Source: Armatimonadota bacterium
GTDB lineage: Bacteria; Armatimonadota; Fimbriimonadia; Fimbriimonadales; Fimbriimonadaceae
Direction of reading: 5' to 3'
Assembly (NCBI GenBank): GCA_020161505.1
Contig: JAIUNY010000016.1
Location: 1 to 63,293 of the forward strand
Length of the DNA stretch: 63,293 nt
Positions within the stretch are counted from its first letter, which is position 1. Every line of letters starts with the position of its first letter. The translations under genes and the position numbers were made by a program. The notes under the pieces were generated by a model that was not told the DNA's origin, ran no database searches, and saw nothing but the letters and a program-made list of their open reading frames with translations. Shown piece after piece: positions 31,643 to 39,049 of the stretch.

Positions 31643-33808
31643 CTACTTCCCGACTTTCCCGTACATCAGATCCACGTAGTCGCGAATCATCCGGGCGGTG
31701 GAGAAGCTGTAGGCACTCGTGGCGACGGCTTGCTTCATCACCTTGATCCACTCGCGGGGCAGACCGTCGGCATCGCGGTTGAAGAAGGTCGGGATGACGT
31801 GCTGCTCCATCACTTCATAGAGCGCCGCGGCGTCCGCGGCATCTTGCTCCTTCAGGTCCTTGAACTCTTTGCGACCGCCGATCGCCCAGCCGTTGCGGTC
31901 CTTGCCATCGACAAACCCTTCATCCCACCAACCATCGAGAATCGAGGTGTTGGGGATGCCGTTGGCAGCCGCCTTCATGCCGCTGGTGCCGCTAGCTTCC
32001 AGCGGGCGACGAGGGTTATTCAGCCACATATCCACGCCCTGAACCAGCATGCGGCCGGTCTCCATGTCGTAATCTTCGAGCAGGAATGCACGTCCTTTGA
32101 ACCGTTTGGTTTCGGTGAGCTTGTAAACTTGCTCCACCACCTTCTGCCCGCCTCGATCGCTGTGGTGGGCTTTTCCGGCGAACAGAATCTGCACCTTGCG
32201 GCCCTTGGCTTCGAAGAGTTTGCTTGCCCGCTTGAGATCGCTGAAGAGCAACCCGGCGCGCTTGTAGGTGGCGAATCGACGAGCAAAACCGATGAGGAAG
32301 GCATCCGGATCCAGACACTCAGCGAATTCGGCGAGTTCGCTCGGGCCTTCGCCGTGGCGAGCGTGTTGCTTGAAGAGTCTCTCCTGAGCCCAAGCGATTA
32401 GCCGCCGCTTTTGCTCCTGGTGGGCCGCCCAGAACTCTTCATCGTTGAGCTCCAAAGCCTTCTCCCAGGTCGGGCGATCGTCCGGTCCCACCAACAGGTC
32501 AGTTTCGCGCTCCAGCGCCAGGCCGTGCTTGTGATACAGGCAGCTGATCTCCGGGCCGATCCACGTGGGCATGTGGACGCCGTTCGTCACGCCAATCACA
32601 TCCATGCCGGTGGCCTTGCTCCATGTTTTGTGCGCAGTTCGGCCATGAAGCAAGCTCACGCCGTTCGACATCTGGGAGTGCCGGAGCCCAAAGGCCGTCA
32701 TGTCAAAGATCTCCGGATCCTTATCCGCACCGCGACCGAGCTTCAGGATCTCCTCGACGTCGATCTTTGAGCCTTCCAGCATCGGAGAGAGCACGGTTCG
32801 AGCTAGGTCGGCTCCGAATCGCTCATTGCCCTCCGGAACCGGAGTGTGGATAGTGATGATGGCGTGAGGCGTGATGGCCTTGCGTGCCGCTTCGAAATCG
32901 GAGCCATTCTCGACCAGATGGTGAAGTTGCTCCAGCAGAAGCAGCGCTGAGTGGCCCTCGTTCATGTGGTAGGAACTGGGCTCGATTCCCAGAGCTCGAA
33001 GCACCTTCATCCCACCGACGCCCAGGACGAACTCTTGGTGCAGGCGCATTTCCCGGCCTGCGGTGTAGAGCTGGCTGCTGATCTTGCGATCTTCGGGGTG
33101 GTTTGACTCAAGGTCGGTATCGAGCACCAGCAGCGGAGTCCGACCGACGGCAAACATCCACACGTTGGCGGTCACAGTGCGTCCTTTGAGCGGCAGAGAA
33201 ATCGTGAGCGGCTCCGAGGTGCCAGGCTTCACCACTTGGTGCAGAGGATAGTTCACGGGGTCGAGCACCGGGAAGACGGCTTCCTGACGGCCTTCCCAGT
33301 CGATGACCTGGTGGAAGAATCCGCGGCGATAGAACAACCCAATCCCGACAAACGGAAGGCCAAGGTCGCTGGCTTCCTTCACGTGGTCGCCTGCGAGGAT
33401 GCCGAGGCCGCCCGCATATTGGTTCATCGAATGGTGGAAGCTGTATTCCGCGCAGAAGTAAACCACCGGCCCCGATCCGACCGACTTCTTTTCGCGGACG
33501 AACCACGTGTCGTCGCCGCTGGCGAGGTAGTCGCTCAGATTTTTGAGTTCGGCATCAATGGCGGCGATGAAATCTTGGTCGTTTGCCAGCGCATCCAAGT
33601 CGCGCAGGTTGCGAAGCATCTCCACCGGGCTCTGTTGGGGATTCCACGCTCCGCCGGAGACCTTCTGGAACAGAGCCTGGGTTTGGCTTCGCCAGGTCCA
33701 GCGCAAGTTCATCGCCAAAGTGGCCAAGCCTTGCAGGGCCCCCGGCAAGTTCATCGTGCTGATCGGGGCGGTCGGAATCTGGCCAATCGTGAAAGGAGGA
33801 GTGTGCAT
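31643..33808 (-). CDS. glgP: Alpha-glucan (glycogen) phosphorylase
   Basis: 721 residues, the shorter bacterial/archaeal type. Visible motifs are VVYFCAEYSFHHSMNQYAGG and GILAGDHVKEASDLGLP near the N-terminus, YHMNEGHSALLLLEQL, GVTNGVHMPTWIGPEI, FARRFATYKRAGLLFSD, and the pyridoxal phosphate site EASGTSGMKAAANG with the Lys near residue 610. It releases glucose 1-phosphate from glycogen or maltodextrin in the cytoplasm. A LacI-type palindrome lies in its leader, suggesting repression by a sugar-sensing regulator. Confidence 0.94.
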   Translation of the reverse strand: MHTPPFTIGQIPTAPISTMNLPGALQGLATLAMNLRWTWRSQTQALFQKVSGGAWNPQQSPVEMLRNLRDLDALANDQDFIAAIDAELKNLSDYLASGDDTWFVREKKSVGSGPVVYFCAEYSFHHSMNQYAGGLGILAGDHVKEASDLGLPFVGIGLFYRRGFFHQVIDWEGRQEAVFPVLDPVNYPLHQVVKPGTSEPLTISLPLKGRTVTANVWMFAVGRTPLLVLDTDLESNHPEDRKISSQLYTAGREMRLHQEFVLGVGGMKVLRALGIEPSSYHMNEGHSALLLLEQLHHLVENGSDFEAARKAITPHAIITIHTPVPEGNERFGADLARTVLSPMLEGSKIDVEEILKLGRGADKDPEIFDMTAFGLRHSQMSNGVSLLHGRTAHKTWSKATGMDVIGVTNGVHMPTWIGPEISCLYHKHGLALERETDLLVGPDDRPTWEKALELNDEEFWAAHQEQKRRLIAWAQERLFKQHARHGEGPSELAEFAECLDPDAFLIGFARRFATYKRAGLLFSDLKRASKLFEAKGRKVQILFAGKAHHSDRGGQKVVEQVYKLTETKRFKGRAFLLEDYDMETGRMLVQGVDMWLNNPRRPLEASGTSGMKAAANGIPNTSILDGWWDEGFVDGKDRNGWAIGGRKEFKDLKEQDAADAAALYEVMEQHVIPTFFNRDADGLPREWIKVMKQAVATSAYSFSTARMIRDYVDLMYGKVGK

Positions 33809-33883: not shown

Positions 33884-34303
33884 TCAATTCTGGGAAGCCG
33901 GAAGCAAGTTCCGCCACACCAGGTGATCAAATCCCAGCTGGACATCCGTGATGACGCCGCCCTTCACTTGAATCAGAGAGGGAAGGGGGATTTCGTACTT
34001 TGGCTGCTCCATCATCCCTGCGCGGTTCGCGTTGTACGACATCATCGCCCGAACTTCAGCGTCGCGTCGATTCTCCCTGAGCCAGTTCGTCACCTTTGCC
34101 TCCTCAAAAGGGGAGTTGAAAACGATGGCGTACCACCCGTCCTGCGTGCCCTTCGGCCCGGACATCATGTATTCCTCAATCGGGCGACCAAGGAACTGCT
34201 TTTCCTCCTTGCTCCGCCCAGGCAAGGCCAAGAGCGCCACGGCGACCCCGATCCCGAGGGCTACGGCCGCCATTCCGGCTGATTTCAGTGCGCGCGTCTT
34301 CAT
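33884..34303 (-). CDS. Exported Cys-less thioredoxin-domain relative
   Basis: 139 residues. An N-terminal membrane anchor (GMAAVALGIGVAVALLALPG) is followed by a domain that aligns by eye with the C-terminal domain of the next upstream gene: DGWYAIVFNSPFEEAKVTNW here against DGWFVVTDPNCEPCKDAKEW there, and PSLIQVKGGVITDVQLGF against PTLLRIERGVVQEVHRGF, both ending with W..LL. The CxxC of the other protein is SPFE here, so it cannot do thiol chemistry and may be a binding partner. It is the last gene of the minus-strand operon. Confidence 0.65.
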   Translation of the reverse strand: MKTRALKSAGMAAVALGIGVAVALLALPGRSKEEKQFLGRPIEEYMMSGPKGTQDGWYAIVFNSPFEEAKVTNWLRENRRDAEVRAMMSYNANRAGMMEQPKYEIPLPSLIQVKGGVITDVQLGFDHLVWRNLLPASQN

Positions 34304-34386
34304 GGGTCTGCTCTTACCTCTCCAACAACCTGCTTGCTTTGCCGATTCCCGCTGCGTCCAATCGCGCGCGATAGGGGCAGCTGCCG

Positions 34387-35307
34387 CTAGCGAGTTCCAA
34401 GGAGGCTGGCCCAGGTACTCGCCTCAAATCCTCGGTGGACTTCTTGCACCACCCCGCGCTCGATCCTGAGGAGAGTGGGAGTCGGGAGCGGAGCATCCTC
34501 CCGGTTGATGCACAGCTGCCTTGACTCTCTTCCGCAAAACTCAACTTCTTTAACATCGACTAACGCCTGGGGTAGCCACTCCTTGGCATCCTTGCAAGGT
34601 TCGCAGTTGGGATCCGTAACCACAAACCACCCGTCTTCGAGATCTCCCCGGAAGATGGTGTTCGCTGATGCGCCTTCTAACACCCTCTTGTGAGGTTCCC
34701 AGTTCGGAAAAGCCTTCAACGAGCTAGCCACCAAGCCTATGAGAAGAGAACCGAAAGCAACGGTTTGAAGCACTCTTATGAGCTTCGCTCCTTGAGTATC
34801 CAACCTCGAATCGACTTCAAGCACTCCCATTGAAAGCGTCCAGTAGGCCAATGTTGCCGTGGCGATACATGCCGGACAGAATTTTGGCTTGATGACTTGC
34901 ATCGCAAGGAATCCAATCACGGAAATGGCTGACACTACAAGCAATAGCGACTTGGGTACGGACTTCCACTGATTGAGTGTGACGAGACCGAGAAACGAAA
35001 TTGCGAACAAAGTCGCAACTGTATCGCCCAAGTGTGACCCTATGCATGTGTTGCAAGCCGCTCGGCCAGCTAGGAGCCAGATTGGTGAAATTGTCAAAAG
35101 TGCCGCATTGAAGAGGCTTAAAAAGCGTCCAGTAAAAAACACAAAAATACTTCCTGCTGAAAACAGGAGCATTGCCCGAACCAGTAGTGTCCATTCTTCT
35201 GGGTGGACAAAGACACCGATCGCCGCTACGACAAAGGTGGTGCCAAGCAAGGCAACTTGCAGGATACTTGCTGCGGACTGTTCATCCTGTTGTTGAAGTC
35301 GTTTCAC
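34387..35307 (-). CDS. VKOR-like membrane protein with C-terminal thioredoxin-like domain
   Basis: About 306 residues from a GTG at 35307 that shares its first base with the last base of the upstream TAG and has AAGAAGG before it. Several membrane helices carry cysteine pairs (AACNTCIGSH and KPKFCPACIA), as in vitamin K epoxide reductase homologues that oxidise periplasmic disulfide carriers. The C-terminal 95 residues form a thioredoxin-like domain with CEPC and a PTPT cis-proline loop. It should generate or shuffle disulfides outside the cytoplasm. Family assignment rests on topology and Cys motifs, not on overall similarity. Confidence 0.68.
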   Translation of the reverse strand: MKRLQQQDEQSAASILQVALLGTTFVVAAIGVFVHPEEWTLLVRAMLLFSAGSIFVFFTGRFLSLFNAALLTISPIWLLAGRAACNTCIGSHLGDTVATLFAISFLGLVTLNQWKSVPKSLLLVVSAISVIGFLAMQVIKPKFCPACIATATLAYWTLSMGVLEVDSRLDTQGAKLIRVLQTVAFGSLLIGLVASSLKAFPNWEPHKRVLEGASANTIFRGDLEDGWFVVTDPNCEPCKDAKEWLPQALVDVKEVEFCGRESRQLCINREDAPLPTPTLLRIERGVVQEVHRGFEASTWASLLGTR

Positions 35308-35717
35308 TAGAAGCCTTCTTGTTCGTCGTTTAAGGATCGAACGGTCCTGGAGAAGTGCAACGTAAGATAGGTGGCCCCAAACCAGCAACAGACTATGTAG
35401 CAAGCTGGGATAAGGGCGAATGACCAGTGCAGTCCCGGCATTGTGGAAAACATGGCAATGTTGTACAAAGGCAGCCAAGCTAAGAGCAATCCCAGAAGGA
35501 GCCAGGGCCTGTATGCCTTTCGACAGGCGGTTCTTGCCAGCGCATACACGATCAATGTTGCGACAAGGTTATCCATCCATTTGAAAACATTCGCTTGCCA
35601 TAAGCCTGCCAGAAGAATGGGTAAGTACGCGAGCTGCACCCCTAAATATGCACCGCCAAGAGATGCTAGCTCCTCAGCGAGCACCATGGGCCACTTGGAC
35701 TTATTAGAGGCGATCAT
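35307..35717 (-). CDS. Small polytopic membrane protein
   Basis: 136 residues with about four hydrophobic helices (LGVQLAYLPILLAGLWQ, LVATLIVYALARTA, PWLLLGLLLAWLPLYNIAM, FALIPACYIVCCWFGATYLT). It begins 14 bases inside the pseudopilin gene and ends in a one-base overlap with the VKOR-like gene, so the three are translationally coupled. The cysteines IVCC lie near the membrane. No family recognised; an assembly role is possible. Confidence 0.65.
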   Translation of the reverse strand: MIASNKSKWPMVLAEELASLGGAYLGVQLAYLPILLAGLWQANVFKWMDNLVATLIVYALARTACRKAYRPWLLLGLLLAWLPLYNIAMFSTMPGLHWSFALIPACYIVCCWFGATYLTLHFSRTVRSLNDEQEGF

Positions 35718-36378
35718 AAACTAAAAATATCGTTCGCCACCGCATGAGGATACACCGATTCCCGCCCTGCGAATCTGCGACACGGGTTCTCGCTTTGAGG
35801 AACTTTGCGTCTCCAAACGCGCGAAAAACCAGAACCTTTTCAGGTAGCGTGTAGTCATTGCAACTCAAAGGTGGCGGATCAGAGGAGATATCTCCAGAGA
35901 ATTTCTTGATCTTTCGGCTTCCATGAAACGCTGAAGCTAGAAGTATCGGATTCTGGACGTCGCGCTCACTGAGCTCTCGTTGCCAAACTTCCATATCTTC
36001 GTATTCATCTAATAAGGGAGGATAGCCGAAGCTACCAACGAGTGGTCGTAAATCCTCGCCGGGCGTCCGTTCCCAGTAGTCGAAAGGGTCTGTCGTAGGT
36101 GCTTTGTCTAAGGCACTTGCAACAGCTTGACCACTTGGCAAATCACCCCTATCAGAATCATAGAGGAGTAGTGCAAGCCCTGATTGCCGAATGTTTGATA
36201 GCGAAACGGTTTGTTTGCCCTTTCCGCGACCCTCGGCGAATACAGCACCGAGGGTCGCCAGGAGAACCATCATAATGGCGATCGCCACAAGTAGTTCAAT
36301 GAGAGTGAATGCTCTTTGCACAGGATCAATAGTGAGGGCATGGGCAGACTGCTGGCGGGCACGCCGCAGCTCCGCCAT
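35704..36378 (-). CDS. Pseudopilin-like protein (degenerate)
   Basis: 224 residues from the ATG at 36378, which abuts the upstream TGA, or about 205 from a GTG at 36321. [20 protein letters not shown] is a prepilin-type signal and helix, and SLSNIRQSGLALLLYDSD is the usual DUF1559-type continuation, but the H-X9-DG motif and the long ectodomain are missing. Start choice matters: the GTG gives a short normal leader (VQRAFTLIE), the ATG an unusually long one. It is in the cysteine/disulfide operon. Confidence 0.68.
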   Translation of the reverse strand: MAELRRARQQSAHALTIDPVQRAFTLIELLVAIAIMMVLLATLGAVFAEGRGKGKQTVSLSNIRQSGLALLLYDSDRGDLPSGQAVASALDKAPTTDPFDYWERTPGEDLRPLVGSFGYPPLLDEYEDMEVWQRELSERDVQNPILLASAFHGSRKIKKFSGDISSDPPPLSCNDYTLPEKVLVFRAFGDAKFLKARTRVADSQGGNRCILMRWRTIFLVYDRL

Positions 36379-36624
36379 TCAGGCAACAGTCGGTCGTCCA
36401 GTCGATGTCACAACTGTAGTGTGACGAGGAAGAACCGTGCACGCCCATGCTGCCACATAAGTGCGAATTTTACGCCATTGAATGAGGCTACAAGGAGCGC
36501 CATGCGCTTCACAGCTATTGTGTCCAGTTCCGCAACTAACTGGATTGGTGGGAGGCCCAAACTGTGCGATGGCCGTGCTTGCGACGAGGAGGGAGAGGCT
36601 AATGAGTAATGTTCTTCCTTTCAT
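36379..36624 (-). CDS. Small exported cysteine-containing protein
   Basis: 81 residues with a signal peptide (GRTLLISLSLLVASTAIAQ) and a short mature part holding four cysteines (SCGTGHNSCEAHGAPCS and WACT). The ATG at 36624 lies exactly six bases after TACAAT, a leaderless start. It is the first gene of an operon that also encodes disulfide-type membrane enzymes, so its cysteines may be oxidised by them. No family recognised; also absent from any known peptide class I can name. Confidence 0.6.
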   Translation of the reverse strand: MKGRTLLISLSLLVASTAIAQFGPPTNPVSCGTGHNSCEAHGAPCSLIQWRKIRTYVAAWACTVLPRHTTVVTSTGRPTVA

Positions 36625-36744: not shown

Positions 36745-37488
36745 ATGATTGAGCGCGAACTCGACCTTTATGCCCACCAACCGATCCCTGGTTGGGATCT
36801 CGCTGGCGACGAAGTCCGCACGACGGAGCCCAACGGCGTTGTTCTCGTCCGCAACGTCAACCGCCCGACTCTCACCCTCCACGAGCACCGCCCCGATGCC
36901 CCCTGGATCATTGTGGTTCCGGGTGGAGGCTATCATGCGCTGGCGATTGACCTCGAAGGTCACGAGGTGGCCCAATGGCTCAACAATCAAGGTCTCAACG
37001 CCGCCGTGCTCAAGTACCGACTCCCGCGCGATCAGGACTCACCCCGATGGCGCATCCCGGTCGATGATCTGAAGCGAGCCGTCGCGCTCATGCGCGCCAA
37101 ATCGCCCCAAACTCCGCTCGCTGTCATCGGGTTCTCCGCAGGAGCCCACTGCTCGGCGACCGCCGCCCACGAATTCGCCGAAGAGCATCAACCTCTCCAG
37201 GCGTTGCTTCTCGTCTATCCTGCTTACCTTCTCACCGATGGTGCTCCGAGCCCAGAAGCCACTCCGGTGAGCCCTCGCACAGCCGTTTTTGGCGTCATGA
37301 CGGAGGATGACCACCTTGATATCAAAGGGCTGCACGCTTACGCGGCCCGCGCGGAGGAAATCGGAGCCCGCGTCACCCTGGTCACGCGTCCGGAGGGAGG
37401 GCACGGATATGGCCTCGGGCAGAAGCTCGATCCCCCCTTTGATTGGCCCAAAAGGGCCAGCGACTTCCTCAAATCTACAGGGTTTTAG
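36745..37488 (+). CDS. Alpha/beta hydrolase (esterase/acetylxylan-esterase-like)
   Basis: About 247 residues from the ATG at 36745; an ATG at 36727 in the same frame is an alternative. WIIVVPGGGYHALA is the oxyanion GGG motif, YRLPRD follows as in the BD-FAE/axeA-type family, IGFSAGAHCSATAA holds the nucleophile Ser, and TRPEGGHGYGL holds the catalytic His. Such enzymes deacetylate oligosaccharides; the substrate here is unknown. TATGCT at 36726-36731 would give a leader of about seven bases before the ATG at 36745. Confidence 0.82.
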   Translation: MIERELDLYAHQPIPGWDLAGDEVRTTEPNGVVLVRNVNRPTLTLHEHRPDAPWIIVVPGGGYHALAIDLEGHEVAQWLNNQGLNAAVLKYRLPRDQDSPRWRIPVDDLKRAVALMRAKSPQTPLAVIGFSAGAHCSATAAHEFAEEHQPLQALLLVYPAYLLTDGAPSPEATPVSPRTAVFGVMTEDDHLDIKGLHAYAARAEEIGARVTLVTRPEGGHGYGLGQKLDPPFDWPKRASDFLKSTGF

Positions 37489-37625
37489 GACTCCCCTCTC
37501 CCAGTTTTCCGGGGTTAGGCGTAACGCTCGCCGGTGCTCGCGCTACTCTTCTCTTGGGCAATGGTGACACTGCACACATAGCAGGGCCACCGGAGGCCTC
37601 TGAAGTTCTCAGGAGAAGAGAAGAA

Positions 37626-38213
37626 ATGACATCCAAGTGGATATCGCTGAGCGTGTTGATGGCGTTGGCCGCTGCATCGCAGGCAAACTTTGTTGTAAAC
37701 GGTGACTTTGAATCGGATCCCTATCCGGCCGCCGACCGAACCGAACTCGTCACCCTGACGGGTTGGGAAATCGGAACGGCGGGCAACGTTCACGGCATCG
37801 GCAAGAACTACAACTACTGGACCGGCTTCCAAGTCCGCGACACCCAGGAACTGGATCTCTCCGAATATTTCAACGGAGAAGGAATCTTCCAGACCCTCAA
37901 CCACAACCTCGCCGGGCAAGAACTCACGATCACCTTTGATCTCTACACCAACGGCACGGGGATCCCGAGCCAATCGGGAGGAGCCAATTTCTGGATGGAT
38001 GGTCAGATGCTCGGCTTTGCCTTAGGGGCGGAAGAGCGGACGCGCTACACCTACACGTTCACCCCCTCGGGCAACAGCAGTGTCATCGCCTTCGGCTCGC
38101 ATCTCGGCAACATGGTTCTGCTCGATAACGTTGAAGTCGTGCCGGAACCCGCCACTCTCACCGCCCTGGGCATGGGCGCCGCTTTTCTCCTACGAAAACG
38201 CAGAAGGGCCTGA
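37626..38213 (+). CDS. PEP-CTERM exported protein, paralogue 1
   Basis: 195 residues. The signal peptide (ISLSVLMALAAASQA) is followed by FVVNGDFESD and a jelly-roll-like domain; the end VPEPATLTALGMGAAFLLRK is a PEP-CTERM anchor signal with a helix and basic tail, which sends proteins to exosortase processing. The ATG follows GGAGAAGAGAAGAA. A close relative lies directly downstream, so the pair is a tandem duplication. A terminator separates them. Confidence 0.87.
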   Translation: MTSKWISLSVLMALAAASQANFVVNGDFESDPYPAADRTELVTLTGWEIGTAGNVHGIGKNYNYWTGFQVRDTQELDLSEYFNGEGIFQTLNHNLAGQELTITFDLYTNGTGIPSQSGGANFWMDGQMLGFALGAEERTRYTYTFTPSGNSSVIAFGSHLGNMVLLDNVEVVPEPATLTALGMGAAFLLRKRRRA

Positions 38214-38235: not shown

Positions 38236-38275
38236 GCCTCGGCAGGCGGCTTGTGCCTTGCCGGGGCATTTTTTC
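38236..38275 (+). terminator. Rho-independent terminator after the first PEP-CTERM gene
   Basis: An imperfect GC-rich hairpin (GCCTCGGCAGGC with GCCTTGCCGGGGC, one bulge) is followed by ATTTTTTC at 38268-38275. Confidence 0.75.
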
Positions 38276-38375
38276 TTCAAGCGCAAGTCGATGCCATCGG
38301 ACGGATTTAAGGGAAGGTCCCTCCGCAAAATTGCCAGATCACCCGGCCTTAACCTACCGACCCAGGCAGATCCGC

Positions 38376-38381
38376 TATACT
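38376..38381 (+). promoter_or_regulatory. -10 box TATACT of the second PEP-CTERM gene
   Basis: TATACT would start a transcript about 53 bases before the ATG at 38441; unlike most genes here, this one keeps a leader with a GGAG site. Confidence 0.5.
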
Positions 38382-38440
38382 ATGGGAGTGCGCGAGATTG
38401 CCGCGCGCGTTGCAGATTCCATTTCTGGAGAAGAGCACAA

Positions 38441-39049
38441 ATGAATACCAAGATCCTCGCGCTCAGCGCGCTCATGGCTTTTGCCGTGTCGTCGCAAGCC
38501 AACTTTGTCGTTAACGGAGACTTTGAAGCCGATGCCTATGCCAACGGTACGGCTCTCTATCCTCTCACCAGCCTCACAGGCTGGACGATCCTGAGCACGG
38601 GCAACGTGGCTGGAATCGGGCTCAATTACAATCCAGTCGCAGGTTTCCAAGCCGCGCCGAGCCAGGAGCTCGATCTCAGCGGATCCTTCGATAACTTCGG
38701 CAACGCCAGTGGGCCGGGAATCAGCCAACAGGTCGCCCATAACCTACCGGGGCCTCTCACTCTGAGCTTTGACATCTACACTTTTTCCACGGGCGGCAGC
38801 CTCGCGGGAGGCGTTGATGTTTACTGGGAAGGCACCCTGCTTGCCGCTGGTCTGCAAGATACGGGGAATGCGCGAACGAACTTCACGTACAGCGTACTTG
38901 CCACCACGGGCACCAGCGAGCTGAAGTTCGTGTCTTCAAACGGCTTTGTCTCCCATGTCGACAACGTCTCCGTGGTTCCGGAGCCAGCAACGATGACTCT
39001 CTTCGCGGCAGCCGCAGCATTGGCCGCGCGGCGAAAGAAGCGAGCCTAA
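38441..39049 (+). CDS. PEP-CTERM exported protein, paralogue 2
   Basis: 202 residues. It is alike in layout to the upstream gene: signal (ALSALMAFAVSSQA), FVVNGDFEAD, a domain ending SHVDNVSVVPEPATM and the anchor helix and basic tail. Sequence identity is recognisable at the N-terminus (QANFVVNGDFE is identical), so the pair arose by duplication and has diverged. A ribosome site (GGAGAAGAG) precedes the ATG. A terminator follows. Confidence 0.86.
   Translation: MNTKILALSALMAFAVSSQANFVVNGDFEADAYANGTALYPLTSLTGWTILSTGNVAGIGLNYNPVAGFQAAPSQELDLSGSFDNFGNASGPGISQQVAHNLPGPLTLSFDIYTFSTGGSLAGGVDVYWEGTLLAAGLQDTGNARTNFTYSVLATTGTSELKFVSSNGFVSHVDNVSVVPEPATMTLFAAAAALAARRKKRA

Follow-up and report, generated by a model that had tools for sequence, protein, structure and literature searches.

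The window, that is, the whole 63,293-nucleotide stretch of Armatimonadota DNA that was analysed (contig JAIUNY010000016.1), contains on its minus strand, from position 36624 down to 33884, five closely packed open reading frames (ORFs). Four of them are members of a conserved cassette and lie in the order C (a Cys-rich secreted protein whose gene is frame-broken, 36326..36624), P (a pseudopilin, 35704..36321), M (a small multi-helix membrane protein, 35307..35717) and V (a VKOR-like membrane protein with a C-terminal thioredoxin/glutaredoxin-fold domain, 34387..35307). The fifth, V' (33884..34303), is a Cys-less partial duplicate of V that comprises its last helix and thioredoxin domain. M overlaps the end of P (35704) by 14 nt, the GTG start of V at 35307 has one base in common with the TAG stop of M, and a gap of 83 nt separates V from V'.

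The first gene had been described in the original prediction as encoding an 81-residue exported protein with four cysteines (36379..36624). This ORF follows the C family from its ATG at 36624 to the fourth Cys codon (36441-36439) and is out of frame past it; beyond that codon the family sequence runs on in the -1 frame, as HGSSSSHYSCDIDWTTDCCLNGGAAACPPAVCPCPHY, up to a TGA stop at 36328-36326. The frame change was located between 36438 and 36413 and corresponds to a net one-base shortfall. With a profile of 17 other C proteins, frame 1 of the window matched hmm positions 10-73 and frame 0 matched positions 79-114, and the two matches meet exactly where the frame changes. Ten cysteines are distributed across the two frames with a spacing of C-6-C-6-C-16-C / 9-C-7-CC-7-C-4-C-1-C, equal within one residue to that of a relative whose gene lies on contig C129 of genome G033 (C-6-C-6-C-16-C-9-C-8-CC-8-C-5-C-1-C), and the C genes of the relatives consist of one single reading frame. 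As both frames match the family profile with the family Cys spacing, the window gene (36624-36326) once encoded a ten-cysteine protein of around 100 residues. The break in the frame, which may be due either to mutation or to an assembly error, creates the 81-residue ORF with four cysteines as an artefact. Ten cysteines at conserved spacing were counted in most of 17 intact or fused C domains. After the start Met, Cys are the only invariant residues among 16 aligned members, the loops being hypervariable, and the ten cysteines probably form a five-disulfide scaffold. No Pfam or NCBIfam model matches the C family.

For P, the most likely start is the GTG at 36321 and not the ATG at 36378; this GTG is placed 4 nt past the C family stop and yields a normal short pseudopilin leader. 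The protein has the N-methylation motif (PF07963, E = 4e-7), and matches to PF07963, with the characteristic E5, were detected in 14 of 15 cassette pilins. The N-methylation leader and the pilin start are shared with the pseudopilins of Armatimonadota and PVC bacteria, from which P differs in a cassette-specific C-terminal region and, in the window, in the lack of an H-X9-DG motif, there being no His ten residues ahead of the conserved Asp. A further difference is a Cys pair (C81/C91 in the numbering of locus L038) present in most members of the cassette pilins, which constitute one specific family; both cysteines are usually present or both absent, and the window P has neither. A search with a narrower pilin alignment matched generic Verrucomicrobia and Planctomycete pilins through the shared N-terminus, with V and C absent at all those loci. 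M is the least conserved partner in the cassette, and neither a Pfam family nor a convincing family of any kind was found for it.

V carries three Cys pairs, C85/C88, C144/C147 and C235/C238, the last of which is a CEPC motif, and the CXXC-CXXC-CXXC pattern is invariant in 10-14 relatives. Its C-terminal domain has a thioredoxin fold with a CXXC, as do VKOR-thioredoxin fusions; it matched PDB glutaredoxins with E = 3.7e-5, in agreement with the Pfam and NCBIfam matches. In VKOR, a Cys pair lies between TM1 and TM2 and a CXXC at the start of TM4 (PMC11208910). Hydropathy and a single-sequence model place helices, with low confidence, at residues 63-89, 91-113, 119-138, 145-165 and 172-198 of V. 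On this prediction V would fit the four-helix layout of VKOR, with C85/C88 between core helices 1 and 2 and C144/C147 heading the fourth, followed by a fifth helix and the thioredoxin domain as in bacterial VKOR-thioredoxin fusions (PF07884, e.g. the PDB 3kp9 homologue). Unlike these fusions, V has extra N-terminal helices, lacks a Pfam match, is found in a cassette with a Cys-rich putative client and shares its genome with a housekeeping VKOR; moreover, both of its membrane pairs are CXXC, whereas the first pair of VKOR is usually CXnC. A second, degenerate thioredoxin domain in the N-terminal region of long V proteins was considered and found unsupported (2%).

None of 14 V proteins matched the Pfam VKOR family (PF07884), and no V locus appeared among the PF07884 matches in 113 genomes. 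Similarly, MauE (PF07291) and DsbB (PF02600) were absent from a Pfam scan of the 14 proteins at E values up to 1. A fold search with a V structure predicted from the single sequence alone, whose pLDDT of 52.8 is too poor for use, was uninformative (VKOR 3kp9 at rank 45, E = 2.4). A profile restricted to the transmembrane (TM) part of V was also compared with VKOR by hhalign, yielding a probability of 9% (E = 0.0035), where control pairs reached 1% and 0.1%. When applied to a set of 3,095 ORFs, the same profile ranked the V family first, followed by a truncated V-like ORF (L084) and then four VKORs (E 0.03-0.3). With about twenty VKORs in the set, four consecutive ones would arise by chance with a probability of the order of 1e-9 if all ORFs are treated as equal, or of about 1e-4 if, by our own estimate, some 200 ORFs are comparable membrane proteins. 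The profile signal is weak, though it appears specific. Given this ranking and the VKOR layout, yet no Pfam match, we label V as VKOR-like and do not assign it to the VKOR family. A genuine VKOR is encoded separately from V in the window's genome, on contig C25, and at least one housekeeping VKOR is present in 107 of the 113 genomes of the class, the window's genome among them; this separate enzyme suggests that V is an extra, specialised copy and not a general oxidase.

V' aligned with residues 178-303 of V at 23% identity (BLASTP, E = 4e-8), hhalign gave 79% for its comparison with the V thioredoxin domains, and it contains no cysteine at all. It is essentially confined to the window's genome, with one marginal match, interrupted by stops, elsewhere in the class, and it does not belong to the conserved cassette system. 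The original prediction was therefore correct in its five minus-strand genes with overlaps or very short gaps, in the pseudopilin without H-X9-DG, in the CEPC motif and in the Cys-less copy of the thioredoxin domain, and it misread the small protein. Its description of V as a VKOR-like protein fused to a CEPC domain stands as regards C235/C238, the thioredoxin fold and the layout. The profile similarity to VKOR on which it had staked this description is missing in Pfam, a failure softened by the more sensitive comparisons above.

A single-sequence scan of genome contigs with V returned no relatives. The search for V over the 113 genomes of the class identified five, in whose neighbourhoods genes of the C, P and M types are found, and further cassettes came from searches with V and C profiles. 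Altogether, more than 20 cassette loci were located, spread over about 18 genomes of Armatimonadota from at least four families, at least three of them (f4, f10 and f13) other than the window's own; a C match in G142 was left out of the count because no pilin lies beside it. Two cassettes each were found in G009, G014, G020, G031 and G033, and one each in G021, G065 (V-C-P seen), G111 (another family), G120 (f10) and G163 (f13), with further cassettes on partial contigs in G151, G153 and G162. In 680 genomes from two other phyla the cassette was not found, only unrelated glutaredoxin domains being matched, and V was absent from all seven congeners, so that one of the eight genomes of the genus carries it. 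The gene order is V-C-P-M (usual) or V-C-M-P, and V stands behind M only in this window. The original prediction had made its case depend on an order not unique to one genome; the order is in fact conserved across at least four families, and the recurrence of the gene set in so many other genomes supports that the arrangement in the window is not due to chance.

Incomplete versions also recur. C-P-M units without an adjacent V were detected in G034, G025, G028 and the window's own genome, where the second unit (G000:C3:61216-62557; L035 7217-8558) has an intact C with eight cysteines. A DsbA-like thioredoxin gene is divergent from the V-less unit of G028 (contig C100; L222 746-1381), and in G034 a tuf gene is flanked by a V-P-M unit on one side and a C-P-M unit on the other. 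V is frame-broken in contigs C6 of G009 (L042) and C8 of G111 (L040), with the adjoining C, P and M intact.

In most cassettes V and C adjoin, often overlapping; in the window, P and M stand between V and the broken C. At one locus (G018:C19; L082 4846-5865) V and C are fused, a single open frame leading from the V membrane domain into the Cys-rich domain with no thioredoxin domain, followed by P and M. The simplest origin of this fusion would be an in-frame deletion joining two genes, and we regard it as the strongest single hint of function. Distance matrices of the families were correlated for V and P (r = 0.55, p = 4e-4), V and M (r = 0.44, p = 0.0013), P and M (r = 0.35, p = 5e-4) and C and P (r = 0.33, p = 0.0015), which is consistent with co-inheritance. 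Those of V and C were uncorrelated (r = 0.11, p = 0.27), for which the short length and strong divergence of C may be responsible.

The explanation that we favour, with a probability of about 0.6, is that the locus is one of a series of recurring Armatimonadota cassettes for oxidative folding whose substrate is a small, Cys-rich protein destined for secretion, and that this copy is partly decayed. C would be exported through its Sec-type signal peptide and would receive disulfides from the CXXC of the periplasmic thioredoxin domain of V. This domain would in turn be reoxidised by the first Cys pair at the membrane edge, and the second membrane CXXC, where the fourth core helix begins, would pass the electrons to quinone. 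Such a route is suggested by the signal peptides, the Cys patterns and the domain layout, together with the established chemistry of VKOR and DsbA. As for P and M, their conserved linkage points to a putative role in anchoring, assembling or exporting the folded C, the simplest possibility for P being that it joins a type II secretion or type IV pilus-like filament. The Cys pair of most cassette pilins further suggests that V may act on P too. Against this explanation, every V member lacks a Pfam VKOR match, the hhalign probability reaches only 9%, the first Cys pair of V departs from the usual CXnC, the V and C distances are uncorrelated, V-less C-P-M units exist, and the adjacent C is broken. 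The original reading of a dedicated disulfide-forming machine is similarly supported in part: the conserved order, the ten-Cys client family, the V-C fusion and the separate VKOR speak for it, and the broken adjacent client gene against it. In any case, the broken C frame, the position of V after M and the Cys-less duplication that produced V' make the window copy look like a decaying cassette. With the neighbouring client gene frame-broken, the adjacent client has probably been lost from this copy, whose V may work for the second C-P-M unit found elsewhere in the same genome.

The stable linkage of a putative oxidase gene to that of a disulfide-rich secreted client resembles a few known systems. 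In uropathogenic E. coli and relatives, the DsbL/DsbI(DsbB2)-ASST operon encodes a dedicated oxidase pair beside its client, an arylsulfate sulfotransferase (PMC4152235); these oxidases belong to a different enzyme family from V, the client is a large enzyme and no pseudopilin is involved. The sublancin operon of the B. subtilis prophage SP-beta encodes a dedicated oxidase, BdbB, together with a small disulfide peptide (PMC6391423), in this case a bacteriocin exported by SunT, again without a pseudopilin. MauE and MauD are thought to mature the beta subunit of methylamine dehydrogenase, and MauE-containing candidate RiPP clusters exist (PMC7794033). The resemblance here is that of a membrane protein and a thioredoxin-like part serving a small Cys-rich protein. 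Dedicated disulfide oxidases are known for a few clients, and in the examples considered here no pseudopilin accompanies them. The Armatimonadota cassette departs from these systems in its type of enzyme, in a client that conserves only its cysteines and in its pseudopilin. The literature library searched yielded no paper joining VKOR with Armatimonadetes, nor pseudopilin with vitamin K epoxide reductase, and the cassette seems so far undescribed. With more than 20 loci, one V-C fusion and several V-less units, it offers many natural replicates for studying the client specificity of VKOR-like proteins, and for asking whether pseudopilins can be cargo-specific.

Other explanations have to be weighed against a folding cassette. 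P could build a pseudopilus that carries C, stabilised by its disulfides, at its tip or as a decoration; V would then oxidise C as well as the paired cysteines of P, and M would aid assembly. The single, specific family of the cassette pilins, with cysteines usually kept or lost together, and the adjacency of P to C in nearly all cassettes, with correlated distances, argue for such an appendage, as do the many pseudopilin genes and visible fimbriae of Fimbriimonas (PMC4072686). We consider it a tentative possibility, given that C has no adhesin or pilin similarity and that the window P lacks the Cys pair. A broader proposal, of which we are rather doubtful, is that of a self-contained folding-and-export module, so far known only from Armatimonadota and shaped by duplication and decay, in which the VKOR-like oxidase, a cargo-specific pseudopilin and the membrane partner would deliver a hypervariable scaffold conserved only in its cysteines, either as a new class of antagonistic peptide with its immunity protein or as a new surface appendage. 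The antagonistic version, with C as a bacteriocin-like disulfide-scaffold peptide, V as its oxidase, M as immunity protein and P as cargo-specific secretion pseudopilin, is on its own unlikely: the cassettes seen contain no leader peptidase/ABC exporter, and no bacteriocin operon is known to us to include a pseudopilin. It would nevertheless account for a C family in which only the cysteines are kept among hypervariable loops, for the poor conservation of M, for a patchy and multi-copy distribution (one of eight genomes in the genus) and for the recurrence of broken copies, and it has a precedent in BdbB, which forms both disulfides of sublancin (PMC6391423).

A role for V and its thioredoxin domain in maturing a subunit that is rich in cysteine and bears a cofactor, as proposed for MauE/MauD and the beta subunit of methylamine dehydrogenase, is very improbable despite a similar parts list of small Cys-rich subunit, membrane protein and thioredoxin-like protein (for MauE, see PMC7794033), since 0 of 14 V proteins match MauE, no cofactor enzyme or partner subunit was seen in the cassettes and C matches no family. 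Finally, we give hardly any credence to the 81-residue, four-Cys protein as a real product, or to the full protein being made by programmed frameshifting: the ORF is open and carries a signal peptide, but nothing in the relatives, which are read in a single frame, corresponds to its out-of-frame half, the other frame fits the family, and no slippery heptamer was evident by eye at the frame change.

Some additional features were observed in the window and in the phylum. Beside the cassette, a glgP-like gene (31643-33808) is an extra copy, around 41% identical both to the counterparts in the congeners and to the other copy in the genome. On the other side, two tandem genes (37443-38213 and 38258-39049) encode exported proteins with PEP-CTERM-type tails. 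In genome G018, the gene for a MauE/DoxX-like membrane protein with a CSCFG motif (G018:C45; L043 4361-5150) immediately precedes that of another kind of secreted protein with eight cysteines, the two constituting another oxidase-plus-Cys-rich pair in the phylum.
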